A stretch of 5,663 nucleotides of DNA from Candidatus Latescibacterota bacterium. GTDB lineage: Bacteria; JAAXHH01; JABIQT01. Below are positions 1,991 to 5,663 of this stretch, one piece after another (within the stretch, counting starts at the first letter, position 1; each line of letters starts with the position of its first letter). Under the pieces are notes generated by a model. It was not told the DNA's origin, searched no databases, and worked only from the letters and a program-made list of their open reading frames with translations. The stretch covers positions 1 to 5,663 of the forward strand of contig JABIQT010000248.1 of NCBI GenBank assembly GCA_018667995.1. The letters are read 5' to 3'. The translations under genes and the position numbers were made by a program.

Positions 1991-2443
1991 ATGTCGACTA
2001 CGCCTGAACTCAAAGGTTCGAAAATCCTAATCGTAGATGATGCGCCGACGGTGATGAAGTTGTTGCAGCGTGCATTGAAGACGGAAGGGTACGATGTACT
2101 GGCAGCCACAAACGGCGCCGTAGCTCTCAACATGGCTGAGGAAGCACTTCCGGATCTTATTCTGCTCGATATCAAGTTGCCTGACATTGACGGTCTGGAG
2201 GTTTGTCGTCGCCTTAAGGAGAGAGAGGCGACCTCGAGTATCCCCGTCATTTTTCTGACGGCACTTGACCAACCACAAAATATGGTCCAGGGCTTTCGAG
2301 CAGGTAGTCAGGATTATGTGTCCAAACCTTTTCACATTGAGGAGGTGCTGGCGCGTGTTAAGATTCATCTCACGCTCAGGCGTCTGATCACTACGATGGA
2401 AGAGCAGCACCAGGAACTGACTCGAAAACACCACGACCTATAA
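1991..2443 (+). CDS. Response-regulator receiver domain with coiled-coil tail; N-terminal piece of a split sigma54 activator
   Basis: The 150-residue product is a CheY-like receiver (residues 11-127) followed by the start of an amphipathic helix. Acidic pocket D16-D17, phospho-acceptor D60 (in ILLDIKLPDIDG), T90 and K112 (in SKPF) are all present, so the domain should accept phosphate from a histidine kinase; no kinase is in the window. After residue 128 the heptad-like LRRLITTMEEQHQELTRKHH begins and is cut by TAA at 2441-2443. The same frame continues directly into the coiled coil and AAA+ domain of the next entry. This is therefore the input half of what looks like one 519-position regulator. 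ATG 1991 is the first start after an in-frame TAA at 1976-1978 and has no clear ribosome site. As a stand-alone protein it would resemble a single-domain receiver; the downstream half argues for a broken or two-part activator. Confidence 0.9.
   Translation: MSTTPELKGSKILIVDDAPTVMKLLQRALKTEGYDVLAATNGAVALNMAEEALPDLILLDIKLPDIDGLEVCRRLKEREATSSIPVIFLTALDQPQNMVQGFRAGSQDYVSKPFHIEEVLARVKIHLTLRRLITTMEEQHQELTRKHHDL
2441..2443 (+). other. In-frame TAA separating receiver and AAA+ halves
   Basis: Codon 151 of the frame starting at 1991 is TAA. The following codons stay in the same frame and keep the heptad-like helical character (ESIQQRNALSTERNQLADHL) up to the AAA+ domain at about codon 185. One base change from a sense codon such as CAA, AAA, GAA or TTA would restore one continuous protein. 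No frame change is involved. Confidence 0.9.
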
Positions 2444-2467
2444 GAATCCATCCAGCAACGCAATGCA

Positions 2468-3550
2468 TTGAGCACCGAGAGAAACCAGCTGGCAGATCAT
2501 CTTGCAATGTTGACCGCACGGGAAGCCGAAAGGTGGGGGCTGGAAGGTTTAATTGGTCGGAGCCCAACCATGCAGACCATACTGGACAAGATTCGTCTGC
2601 TACGCCAGTCAGACACAATTCGAATCCTTATCACCGGAGAGAGCGGAACCGGAAAGGAACTGATTGCCCGGGCGATCCACACTGGTAGTGGGCGGCGAGA
2701 GGGACCCTTTATCCCGGTGAATTGCGCTGCTATTCCGGTACAATTGGCGGAGTCGTTGTTTTTTGGTCACGTACGAGGTGCATTCACGGGAGCAGACCGG
2801 GACCGGCAAGGGTATTTTGCGCTCGCGCATACTGGGACGCTCTTTCTGGATGAAGTAGCGGATCTGGCGCCTGAGCTCCAACCAAAACTGCTACGTGTGC
2901 TCGAAGATGGTGTGGTTGTACCGCTCGGATCCTCAAAGGAGCAGAAAATAGATGCGAGGATCATCGTTGCCAGCAATCAGGATCTTCAGACCCGTGTGGC
3001 TCAGGGCGTATTCCGGGAGGACCTGTATTTTCGTCTTCGGCAGGTTGCTGTGGGCGTACCTCCTCTGCGCGATCGAAAAGAGGACGTACCGTTGCTGGCT
3101 AATCATTTTCTGCAGTTGTTTGCTCAGGAAATGGCCATCCCTGTGCCCCAGTTAACGGATATGGCCCTCACACGCTTGCAGGGGTACAGTTTCCCCGGCA
3201 ACGTGCGCGAGTTGAAGAATCTGGTCGAGCATGCTTTGCTTGACAGCCGGGGAAAAGACATTCAGGCAGAGCCCCTCCATCTCTTGCCGAACCTGCCGAT
3301 GGGGACGAACATCTCGCTGGAAAATGGTGGCAATGATCTTGGTTCATCGATGTCGCGGAGTGATGACCTCAGCGGATTCGAAGCTCAGAATGAATTGCCC
3401 CTCAATCTGGAGGAGGCCGAGTTGCTCGTAATCAAACGGGCCGTAGCTCATACCCATGGGAACGTGGCCGCAGCGGCCAGGCTCCTGGGTACGAATCGTA
3501 CCCGAATCTATCGTACTCTGAACCCTGAGAAATACAAAATCTCCAGTTGA
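2468..3550 (+). CDS. Sigma54-dependent activator, AAA+ and Fis-type HTH half
   Basis: This bacterial enhancer-binding protein half remodels the RNA polymerase-sigma54 closed complex using ATP. Residues, counted from TTG 2468: coiled-coil end 1-25; AAA+ domain about 28-258 with Walker A GESGTGKE (57-64), sigma54-contact loop GAFTGA (104-109), Walker B GTLFLDEV (123-130), sensor I around N170, arginine-finger segment FREDLYFRL (182-190) and sensor II FPGNVREL (242-249). A Ser/Asp/Asn-rich linker of about 35 residues follows, then a Fis-type helix-turn-helix (about 315-350, NVAAAARLLGTNRTRIYRTL). All catalytic motifs are intact, so selection has recently maintained it. The start is uncertain: TTG 2468 and ATG 2507 both lack a good ribosome site, so expression may need readthrough of, or reinitiation after, the TAA at 2441. 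The conserved ESELFG motif reads ESLFFG here. Its likely targets are the repeat clusters at 3601-3658 and 3909-3969. Confidence 0.92.
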   Translation: MSTERNQLADHLAMLTAREAERWGLEGLIGRSPTMQTILDKIRLLRQSDTIRILITGESGTGKELIARAIHTGSGRREGPFIPVNCAAIPVQLAESLFFGHVRGAFTGADRDRQGYFALAHTGTLFLDEVADLAPELQPKLLRVLEDGVVVPLGSSKEQKIDARIIVASNQDLQTRVAQGVFREDLYFRLRQVAVGVPPLRDRKEDVPLLANHFLQLFAQEMAIPVPQLTDMALTRLQGYSFPGNVRELKNLVEHALLDSRGKDIQAEPLHLLPNLPMGTNISLENGGNDLGSSMSRSDDLSGFEAQNELPLNLEEAELLVIKRAVAHTHGNVAAAARLLGTNRTRIYRTLNPEKYKISS

Positions 3551-3600
3551 TTACCTCAGCCATACCTACCCTGTCTAACAGCACCGGACATCATCGATAT

Positions 3601-3658
3601 TGTCGCGACACGTAACACGGATGTATCTCCGCGTGACAGATTGTAACGCCATGTAACG
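3601..3658. promoter_or_regulatory. Enhancer cluster 1: three 17-bp dyad sites
   Basis: Three sites start at 3601, 3622 and 3642 (TGTCGCGACACGTAACA, TGTATCTCCGCGTGACA, TGTAACGCCATGTAACG). Their centres are 21 and 20 bp apart, about two helical turns. All share TGTnnC at the left and GTnAC at the right, as do the three sites of cluster 2. The same structure can be read as a GTNNC motif recurring every 10-11 bp. The cluster lies 50 bp after the activator stop and before its likely terminator, so it falls in the 3' untranslated part of the activator mRNA. By analogy with NtrC-family activators these are probable upstream activator sequences, here weaker matches than in cluster 2. Confidence 0.6.
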
Positions 3659-3692
3659 ATATTCTTGCAGATAAGTGGCCCGTAGCCGGATA

Positions 3693-3725
3693 GCTGGAAG
3701 TAACAGGCTCGTTTCAGCATTTTTT
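3693..3725 (+). terminator. Intrinsic terminator, probably of the activator gene
   Basis: GCTGGAA (3693-3699) pairs with TTTCAGC (3712-3718), seven pairs including one G-U, around a 12-base loop. After one A follows a run of six T (3720-3725). It lies about 170 bases after the activator stop and before the sigma54 promoter, so it would separate the regulator transcript from the downstream unit. The stem is modest. Confidence 0.5.
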
Positions 3726-3908
3726 GCCATGTCGTCAGCATCGTTCCACAGGTCTGGCCCTATTGTTGATTCCGAATGTGGATGAGTCTATGGATAGTAG
3801 TTGTGAAGTTTCATATGTTTAGGTCCATCGTGATAGCTTGTACCATGGGCAAACATAGGCTCGGGCGCTGCATTTTACCTTGGTCCTATTGCTGTATGAA
3901 AGAAAACA
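3726..3908. other. Spacer between enhancer clusters; no gene seen
   Basis: No credible coding region occurs on either strand. Two poor sigma54-like matches are present, TGGCCC-N5-TTGAT (3755-3770) and AGGCTC-N5-CTGCA (3857-3872). Both keep the 12-base GG spacing, but the first lacks the -12 C and the second has three mismatches outside the core dinucleotides. Confidence 0.4.
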
Positions 3909-3969
3909 TGTAACACTGTGTGACACGTTAGTGTTACGCAGTGTTACAATAGTGTAGCGCACTGTTACA
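3909..3969. promoter_or_regulatory. Enhancer cluster 2: three 17-bp palindromic activator sites
   Basis: Sites start at 3909 (TGTAACACTGTGTGACA), 3932 (TGTTACGCAGTGTTACA) and 3953 (TGTAGCGCACTGTTACA). They fit TGTnnCRCn(G/C)TGTnACA, a dyad; the first is palindromic at seven of eight base pairs. Centres at 3917, 3940 and 3961 are 23 and 21 bp apart, placing them on nearly one face of the helix. They lie about 110-150 bp before the predicted start of transcription at 4069, the normal position for enhancers of sigma54 promoters. The outer arms (3907-3926 and 3952-3971) also form an imperfect 20-bp inverted repeat matching at 16 positions. Three dimer sites would suit assembly of one activator hexamer. 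Binding by the adjacent activator is inferred. Confidence 0.78.
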
Positions 3970-4042
3970 TGGTTGCGGGGTAGGAGGAAGTCGCTCTTGA
4001 TTAAGTTGTGTGTTTATATTGAAATAAGAGATTTCGGTTTGT

Positions 4043-4058
4043 TGGCACAGTGATTGCA
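4043..4058 (+). promoter_or_regulatory. Sigma54 (RpoN) -24/-12 promoter
   Basis: TGGCAC (4043-4048), five bases, then TTGCA (4054-4058) matches the TGGCAC-N5-TTGCA consensus at every defined position, with GG and GC exactly 12 bases apart. Transcription should begin near 4069. The upstream gene encodes an activator with the GAFTGA loop, and three palindromic sites lie at enhancer distance. Confidence 0.92.
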
Positions 4059-4068
4059 CAATATATAG

Positions 4069-4208
4069 ACCAGAGAAGGAAAGAATGTATAACGGTATCG
4101 CAGACTTTACGCGCTACCGTTTACTCCCCTCCTCCTCGTTCTTACCTCCAAGGGCTCTCGCCCATTCCCGCCATCGAATCTGCCCATTCGGTGGCGGGTT
4201 TCCTTTTT
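4069..4208 (+). ncRNA. Predicted sigma54-dependent small RNA of about 140 nt
   Basis: The 5' end is set by the promoter at 4043-4058 and the 3' end by the terminator at 4167-4208. Visible structure: hairpin 1 pairs AACGGTA (4091-4097) with TACCGTT (4115-4121), with CGC/GCG (4099-4101, 4111-4113) closing a loop of nine. A pyrimidine-rich unpaired stretch (4122-4149) then holds CCTCC at 4128-4132, 4131-4135 and 4145-4149. A small GGGC-TCTC-GCCC hairpin (4152-4163) and the terminator hairpin follow. CCUCC is complementary to Shine-Dalgarno GGAGG, so base-pairing with target mRNAs is a reasonable guess. The placement next to a sigma54 activator recalls CrcZ and Qrr RNAs, but I recognise no family. 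It could instead be an attenuated leader of the transporter, or encode a short peptide from ATG 4085. Confidence 0.7.
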
Positions 4209-4306
4209 ATGCCTGTTTTCTCTTGACAATATATCCTATCCTGATACCGTTTTTGACTTCCATCATATATATAGGGCTGGTCATCAAATACGAGGTGCCG
4301 CCATGA
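4085..4306 (+). CDS. Doubtful small ORF overlapping the small RNA and the transporter start
   Basis: A 73-residue frame begins with ATG 4085, four bases after AAGGA (4076-4080), and stops at TGA 4304-4306, overlapping the transporter ATG as ATGA. The C-terminal half is hydrophobic (FYACFLLTIYPILIPFLTSI) and could span a membrane. Against it: the frame runs through the strong terminator hairpin at 4167-4198, is rich in Pro, Ser and Arg because it covers the C/U stretch, and resembles nothing I know. It is more likely a by-product of the RNA gene, though the ribosome site and ATGA overlap would suit a translated leader. Confidence 0.2.
   Translation: MYNGIADFTRYRLLPSSSFLPPRALAHSRHRICPFGGGFPFYACFLLTIYPILIPFLTSIIYIGLVIKYEVPP
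4167..4208 (+). terminator. Strong intrinsic terminator of the small RNA
   Basis: CCCGCCATCGAA (4167-4178) pairs with TTCGGTGGCGGG (4187-4198): twelve pairs with one G-U, loop TCTGCCCA, followed directly by TTTCCTTTTT (4199-4208). It stands between the sigma54 promoter and the transporter, so most transcripts from 4069 should stop here unless antitermination occurs. Confidence 0.9.
4209..4302 (+). promoter_or_regulatory. Transporter leader with ribosome binding site
   Basis: GAGGT (4292-4296) lies six bases before ATG 4303 and is a good ribosome site. A perfect -35 box TTGACA occurs at 4223-4228, but no acceptable -10 follows at 16-18 bases, so an independent sigma70 promoter is possible but unproved. 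GATACCGTT (4243-4251) is the exact reverse complement of 4091-4099 in hairpin 1 of the small RNA. Confidence 0.5.
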
Positions 4307-5663
4307 GTACCAGTCAGGATTCGCAGACAGGCCTCATTGAAATCCCGCCGAACGAGGGATTGCATGGTGAGCCGTTTTCTCTGCGAAAAATGAAACGCCT
4401 ACTCGCCTTCTTTGGGCCCGCAGCGCTGCTTGCGTCGCTGGCAATCGGTGCTGGAGAAACCATTCTGGTGACAGGTGTGGGTGCCTGGGCAGAATATGGC
4501 CTTCTGTGGCTGATACTTGTAGGTGTCCTGGTGAAGGCCGTATTCGTCACCTATCTGCTCGGGCGATATACAGCCGTGAGTGGTCAATACATTGGTCATT
4601 CGCTCGTAGGGCTACCTGGCCCGCGGGGTTGGTTGATATTGACATTGATCGTTATCGAGCTCGTGGGATTGAGCCTGGCACTCACGGCGGTGGCAAAGCC
4701 CTGCGGAAATCTGGTGGTATTTCTATTCGAAGGGGCCTTCCCGCAGGTCGTGTCTTCGACCTTCTGGGAGAATCTGGTTACTACGCTGTTTCTCGGTGCC
4801 GCAATGGCGCTCAGCCTGACGATGTCCTATCACGGATTAGAGCGTCAGCAGATTGTCATATGTGGTGTCTTAGTGTGTGGTACCGTGCTCGGTACCTGGA
4901 TGGTATGGCCGAGTATATCCGGTATTCTTATCGGTACATTGAGCGTGGGCAGTCTTCCAGCTGTACCCGACTGGGGACCACCGGCTGCGCGTAACGACTA
5001 TTGGTTGAATCTCGTAACAGTGTTTGGGTATGTCGGCGGTACCATCAGCGCCTATCTGGCGTATTCAAACTGGGTCGGACTCCGGGGTTGGGGCATTACT
5101 TCACATCCCGATATTGAGCGTATTCGGGCAAGGTCTCAAGATGGCTCCCGTATAGACTACCTGTCAGACAATCCGGTCGAAGTTCAGAGAATGCAAGTCC
5201 TGCTAACGCCATTGCGATGGGATGTGGCAATGGGCGCTTTGGTACTCTTTATAGTAACGGCATCATTTATGATTGCCGGAGCCATTGTACTCTATCCGAG
5301 ACACCAGATTTTGCCGGGCAATGCATTCGATCTCCTAACAAGTCAGTCAGCTATCTGGGCCGAAATTCACAGCGGTCTGGTTCCCGTGTATCATGTCGCA
5401 GTTCTTGCGTCTCTATGGGGAACCTTGGCTACCATACCAGAGGCTGCGACACGTGTCACTCACGAGTTCCTGAGCGCGGTCTGGAAATCGTTTGAATCCT
5501 TCCCATATAAAGGGCTTCAGACGATAATAGTAGTGTGGTTCTTCGGCGCCTCCTGTGTCTGGATATGGAGTGACGTCAGTTTCGCGCTCTTAACGCAAAT
5601 CGTGGCCATGTTTACCACGAACCTTGGTGTTGGACTGCTGGGAATAATCTCAGTCTATCTGAA
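4303..5663 (+). CDS. Nramp-related multi-pass membrane transporter (partial, 3' end outside window)
   Basis: From ATG 4303 the frame stays open to the window edge, giving 453 residues. After a polar N-terminus (1-26), hydrophobic segments lie at about 33-50, 52-80, 108-130, 160-178, 184-217, 232-258, 306-332, 357-377, 405-424 and 427-453. The first reads FFGPAALLASLAIGAGET, which has the shape of TM1 of Nramp/SLC11 carriers (GPGFL..IAYIDPGN). Residues 235-260, with GYVGGTISAYLAYSN, occupy the TM6 position. The metal-binding motifs of classic MntH are not conserved: DPGN is replaced by GAGE (49-52) and no MPH is present in TM6. It is therefore a distant Nramp-like protein, and substrate cannot be inferred; Mn2+ or Fe2+ should not be assumed. 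The start follows GAGGT at six bases. A loop at 265-300 is rich in charged residues. Its link to the upstream sigma54 promoter is uncertain because a terminator intervenes. Confidence 0.8.
   Translation, partial: MSTSQDSQTGLIEIPPNEGLHGEPFSLRKMKRLLAFFGPAALLASLAIGAGETILVTGVGAWAEYGLLWLILVGVLVKAVFVTYLLGRYTAVSGQYIGHSLVGLPGPRGWLILTLIVIELVGLSLALTAVAKPCGNLVVFLFEGAFPQVVSSTFWENLVTTLFLGAAMALSLTMSYHGLERQQIVICGVLVCGTVLGTWMVWPSISGILIGTLSVGSLPAVPDWGPPAARNDYWLNLVTVFGYVGGTISAYLAYSNWVGLRGWGITSHPDIERIRARSQDGSRIDYLSDNPVEVQRMQVLLTPLRWDVAMGALVLFIVTASFMIAGAIVLYPRHQILPGNAFDLLTSQSAIWAEIHSGLVPVYHVAVLASLWGTLATIPEAATRVTHEFLSAVWKSFESFPYKGLQTIIVVWFFGASCVWIWSDVSFALLTQIVAMFTTNLGVGLLGIISVYL

Follow-up and report, generated by a model that had tools for sequence, protein, structure and literature searches.

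The 5,663-nt stretch of DNA analysed here (the window), which is one entire contig (C614) of a 6.06 Mb, 85% complete draft genome of Candidatus Latescibacterota, carries a probable sigma54-driven small RNA (sRNA) gene, known from a single sequence. The reading that we favour, with a probability slightly above one half (about 0.56), is that of a stand-alone regulatory sRNA of about 140 nt, which the NtrC-type activator encoded next to it would turn on. The gene order is gatB, the NtrC-like activator gene (1991-3550), an intergenic region, and an Nramp-like transporter gene (4303 to the contig end). A search of the Latescibacterota literature for sRNA work found none. The elements read from the DNA are the following.

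1-1581: gatB, the first gene on the contig.
1991-2443, plus strand: receiver domain of the NtrC-like activator (Pfam Response_reg, 3.1e-32), ending at an in-frame TAA.
2444-3550, plus strand: linker, AAA+ domain and Fis-type HTH of the activator, in the same frame (Pfam Sigma54_activat, 6e-63; HTH_8, 4e-6).
3601-3617, 3622-3638 and 3642-3658, strand not applicable: far palindrome row, three imperfect 17-bp palindromes 20-21 bp apart.
3909-3925, 3932-3948 and 3953-3969: near palindrome row, a probable enhancer (UAS), one mismatch each, 21-23 bp apart.
4043-4057, plus strand: sigma54 -24/-12 promoter TGGCACAGTGATTGC, from a motif scan.
4069-4208, plus strand: predicted small RNA of about 140 nt, from its fold, the lack of a complete ATG-started ORF and the lack of an Rfam match.
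4087-4124, plus strand: 5' hairpin, stem AACGGTA...TACCGTT with inner CGC/GCG.
4125-4150, plus strand: C/U-rich linker CUCCCCUCCUCCUCGUUCUUACCUCC, mostly single-stranded by sequence and unpaired probabilities.
4152-4163, plus strand: small hairpin GGGC-UCUC-GCCC, from the fold.
4167-4208, plus strand: intrinsic terminator with a 13-pair stem (4167-4198), a 6-nt loop and the tail TTTCCTTTTT.
4223-4250, plus strand: TTGACA-16-TACCGT, a possible but weak promoter of sigma70 type for the transporter gene (matched in score by 15 of 300 shuffles).
4303-5663, plus strand: Nramp-like transporter gene, running off the contig (NCBIfam Nramp, 2.6e-11, below the cut-off).

The promoter TGGCACAGTGATTGC is the sole match without mismatches to TGGCAC-N5-TTGC within the window, and we estimate the chance of a perfect match at about 0.01 per window, the scan tool's own chance figure referring to matches with up to two mismatches rather than to perfect ones. 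Genome-wide, 32 perfect sites were counted, whereas the reversed pattern, used as a control, gave 9, and perfect -24/-12 sites are thus enriched about 3.5-fold; rpoN is also present, as a sigma54 DNA-binding domain truncated by a contig end. Since the G-C of the -12 box lies at 4056-4057, the transcription start is predicted at about 4069 (4068-4069). Among the 30 perfect sites that were read, only the one at 4043-4057 is followed by a long and strong (13-bp) terminator ahead of the next gene, two others having weak terminator matches of 7-10 bp.

The 141 nt downstream of this promoter are predicted to fold with -52.7 kcal/mol (z -5.8; none of 200 shuffles did as well), and the segment without its terminator gives a z of -3.3. 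In a sliding scan of 370 segments of 141 nt, taken from both strands of the window, it is among the five strongest. The original prediction, namely, a perfect -24/-12 promoter followed, from about 11 bases downstream, by some 140 nt with a 5' hairpin, a C/U-rich linker, a small hairpin and a terminator with U-tract, is borne out by these results in all but one detail, as the terminator stem has 13 pairs and not 12. The T-tract, TTTCCTTTTT, is broken by CC. The linker CUCCCCUCCUCCUCGUUCUUACCUCC resembles the anti-Shine-Dalgarno sequence and ends in ACCUCC. The RNA contains a single ATG, whose frame reaches the terminator without meeting a stop, and no complete ATG-started ORF lies inside.

At z -6.7, the minus strand of 4068-4208 folds better still, and a long stem forms around the 5' hairpin. 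Fold energy alone therefore gives no strand, and it is the promoter and the T-tract that assign the RNA to the plus strand. An RNA from the minus strand was considered and rejected: it would fold well, but no promoter or terminator signal for that strand is present there.

The best support for a sigma54 switch, which the original prediction did not mention, comes from the intergenic region. Between the stop codon of the activator gene and the promoter there are two rows of 17-bp palindromes (TGTAAC-N5-GTTACA type), each with three copies at intervals of about 21 bp. When all 6-bp half-sites with every spacer from 0 to 10 were considered, five palindromes with up to two mismatches were found in the 492 bp of 3551-4042, against a maximum of three in 60 dinucleotide shuffles. 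Relative to the predicted start, the three near palindromes have their centres at about -152, -129 and -108, which places them roughly on the same helix face, and the far row lies at -419 to -460. NtrC-type enhancers are 17-bp dyads of the form 6-N5-6. The palindromes have the length and symmetry of these and of the NifA enhancer, TGT-N10-ACA (PMC6296734), but their half-site is TGTAAC and not TGCACC. By its motifs, the near row has the position and layout typical of an NtrC-type enhancer, and is probably one; that the activator gene next to it encodes the protein binding these palindromes is suggested by position.

Across the whole assembly, six places match the palindrome with at most one mismatch, three of which are the near row itself. 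A comparable intergenic palindrome cluster was sought throughout the assembly and none was found elsewhere. We also considered whether the activator has a regulon at other places in the genome, and rejected this: the remaining matches do not exceed the control number, and the sole further tandem pair that includes a good site is located within a coding gene. Because the near row supplies half of the assembly-wide matches and the other tandem pair is in a coding gene, the data suggest a local, dedicated regulator, as judged in a genome of which 15% is missing and for sites strong enough to be detected.

The activator itself has a complete receiver domain, and GESGTGKE and GAFTGA motifs in its AAA+ domain; together with the Fis-type HTH, these identify it as the likely activator gene that had been proposed to lie next to the RNA, with one reservation. 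An in-frame TAA at 2441-2443 falls in the linker after the receiver, and the part that follows corresponds to an ORF from TTG 2468. The orthologue in genome G013 is an uninterrupted protein of 509 aa, without a stop at this place, with 49-50% identity along its full length. The TAA may mean that the gene is truly split or is decaying, or may be an error in the consensus; if real, either the receiver would be cut off or the activator gene would be decaying. The G013 orthologue has different neighbours, with no palindromes and no perfect promoter on its contig, and the G013 genome showed no palindrome excess.

Decay could extend to the RNA, if the enhancer and promoter here were the remains of a unit that once worked, next to an activator gene that is broken, and the RNA were now functionless. 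The TAA would fit such a scenario, and so would the lack of conservation of the RNA. First, no relative was found in a DNA search against 96 genomes, the lone match (in G042) being 24 nt of C/T-rich sequence and not a homologue. Second, a single-sequence covariance model detected no relative in 16 genomes of the same phylum, deposited mostly as Candidatus Latescibacterota and some with titles that bear other names; neither did it detect a further copy across 16 sources, including the window. Third, plasmids, phages and viral contigs yielded no relatives. Turnover is also suggested by the far palindrome row, which is accompanied only by a poor sigma54-like site. Nevertheless, decay would not have kept the promoter, the three near palindromes and the terminator intact, as all of them are, and the AAA+ and HTH parts beyond the TAA are intact as well. 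We consider decay or chance the least probable of the explanations, and very improbable.

A more serious, though still unlikely, alternative is that the sigma54 promoter serves the transporter gene, such that the 234 nt of 4069-4302 would form a 5' leader, with a terminator that either attenuates or is passed by the polymerase, and the activator would control the uptake of a metal or another solute. The control of dctA by DctD provides a model for such activator-controlled uptake, and activator genes commonly adjoin their sigma54-driven target genes. The same genome offers an example in locus L085 (contig C188 of G000, from 1501 onward), where a perfect -24/-12 site lies downstream of a second sigma54-activator gene and precedes, with a leader of about 180 nt, a thioredoxin-like gene. 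Here, the transporter gene has the same direction as the RNA and starts 95 nt after the terminator, and its own sigma70-type promoter is weak. Moreover, the 73-aa frame from ATG 4085 (4085-4306) spans the RNA and the terminator; it contains a hydrophobic stretch towards the C-terminus, and its end shares an ATGA with the start of the transporter gene. In a transcript that continues past the terminator, the linker is paired with the Shine-Dalgarno region of that gene. This pairing with the start region slightly beats that of shuffled linkers (p about 0.03; the test covered four genes) and is a hint at most.

Against a leader, a 13-pair terminator with a T-tract intervenes, its hairpin persists in the fold of the long transcript, and no convincing antiterminator pairing was found. 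The codon score of the 73-aa frame, -0.13, is near that of intergenic DNA and lower than in all tested pieces of the window's genes (0.02 to 0.21); a small protein at 4085-4306, with this weak score and no family match, was accordingly rejected. The transporter, which has no Pfam match and only a weak NCBIfam Nramp match, has orthologues of 63-70% identity through the order, and the family also occurs in a few Planctomycetota. The orthologues examined in the order have neither the sigma54 promoter nor the RNA or a leader, and the RNA unit is therefore separable from the transporter gene. In addition, the tests for leader and riboswitch families of this Nramp-like gene gave no known family, and no conserved leader before the orthologues. 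For these reasons we hold the sRNA reading likelier than that of a leader.

A combination of both, in which the promoter yields mostly the short RNA plus some transporter mRNA through partial read-through, seems improbable to us. It draws on the same geometry as the leader and on the interrupted tail of the terminator, TTTCCTTTTT, and read-through into a neighbouring regulatory RNA has been described for crcZ, from the cbrB promoter (PMC8871633).

With a stand-alone sRNA as the preferred reading, we compared the locus with known systems. Rfam, which holds models for CrcZ and Qrr, was searched up to E=5 with no match besides a chance microRNA model, which agrees with the original view that the RNA resembles neither of the two; the match to mir-2804, at 3889-3959, comes from the enhancer palindromes, which the model takes for a hairpin. 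Hfq, on which Qrr depends, was sought in the 16 genomes of the phylum and not found, with controls detected and the genome under study 85% complete. For a sigma54-dependent sRNA beside its activator, the locus appears to have a suitable promoter distance, an adjacent AAA+ activator gene (with its in-frame TAA) and enhancer motifs within 80-200 bp upstream. As far as can be judged from sequence, the RNA would work like Pxr, CrcZ and Qrr, and on the tests made it is a member of none of these families. With one sequence to go by, the data carry the claim of a probable sigma54-driven sRNA gene, and the new RNA family originally suggested goes beyond them. The parallels drawn at the outset, CbrB-CrcZ and LuxO-Qrr, are apt, but a closer one, Pxr of myxobacteria, had gone unnamed.

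The closest known wiring is that of Pxr in Myxococcus, followed by CbrB-CrcZ. The Pxr locus consists of the NtrC-like gene pxrR (PxrR being Nla19), about 260 nt with enhancer and sigma54 promoter, and an sRNA of about 108 nt with three stem-loops; the next gene follows close behind, the neighbour pxrA is a proposed target, and no Hfq was found in the genomes (PMC5684412, PMC5568312, PMC11928866). In layout, the Latescibacterota locus shares the regulator, the enhancer, the sigma54 promoter and the three-hairpin RNA, and Hfq was found in neither. However, it belongs to another phylum, it has no kinase gene by the regulator, whereas Pxr has PxrK, and its neighbour is an Nramp-like transporter gene instead of an acetyltransferase gene.

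In CbrB-CrcZ of the Pseudomonadaceae, the enhancer has three subsites 20-25 bp apart, which have been called non-palindromic (PMC6296734, PMC8871633). The likeness lies in an sRNA gene that immediately follows the activator gene and forms a unit of its own, with a sigma54 promoter and three subsites; even the CbrB subsite hexamer, TGTTAC/GTAACA, is found here, at 3910, 3932, 3942 and 3963. Yet the orientation of the subsites differs, the hexamers here sit within 17-bp palindromes, there is no CrcZ match in Rfam, and CrcZ acts by binding the Hfq/Crc complex (PMC6296734, PMC8871633), whereas no Hfq was found here. In LuxO-Qrr of the Vibrionaceae, an NtrC-type regulator gene likewise adjoins a sigma54-driven sRNA gene with enhancers upstream, but qrr is opposite to luxO, the enhancer is TTGCAWWWTGCAA (PMC10162802), and no Qrr match was obtained.

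The mechanism that we propose is as follows. First, the phosphorylated activator would bind the palindromes at -108 to -152, and possibly those of the far row (-419 to -460) as well. Second, the bound activator would contact the sigma54 polymerase through DNA looping, and the promoter at 4043-4057 would open. Third, the transcript would stop at the terminator (4167-4208), which would set its 3' end ahead of the transporter gene. Fourth, the RNA would probably base-pair with its targets through the exposed C/U-rich linker (ACCUCC, CUCCUCCUC). Given that this linker is like the anti-Shine-Dalgarno tail of the ribosome, the simplest action would be to cover Shine-Dalgarno sequences of target mRNAs, possibly that of the transporter mRNA too, without Hfq. 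More tentatively, and with somewhat less than an even chance in our judgement, this may be a dedicated switch, where one NtrC-type activator acts, through its sole recognisable enhancer row in the assembly, on the adjacent sRNA gene, having arisen in the Latescibacterota independently of Pxr, CrcZ and Qrr, and with a C/U-rich linker acting free of Hfq.

If real, this locus would extend the module of an NtrC-type activator beside its sRNA to the Latescibacterota and, together with Pxr, CrcZ and Qrr, would suggest a repeated origin of such wiring. It also provides a search rule, namely, an activator gene, a row of 17-bp palindromes about 21 bp apart, a -24/-12 box, and a terminator within about 200 nt before the next gene.

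Some minor observations concern the sequence upstream of the promoter. Aligned with each other, the two palindrome rows score 39, whereas shuffles reach no more than 35. A duplication that covered the promoter and the RNA as one unit was considered and rejected, as the alignment outside the rows is not clearly above shuffles. The poor sigma54-like site mentioned above, TGGCCC-N5-TTGA with two mismatches (3755-3769), lies about 97 bp past the far row and is possibly a worn second promoter unit. Finally, the segment 3818-3958, which overlaps the near enhancer row, also folds strongly (z -5.7).
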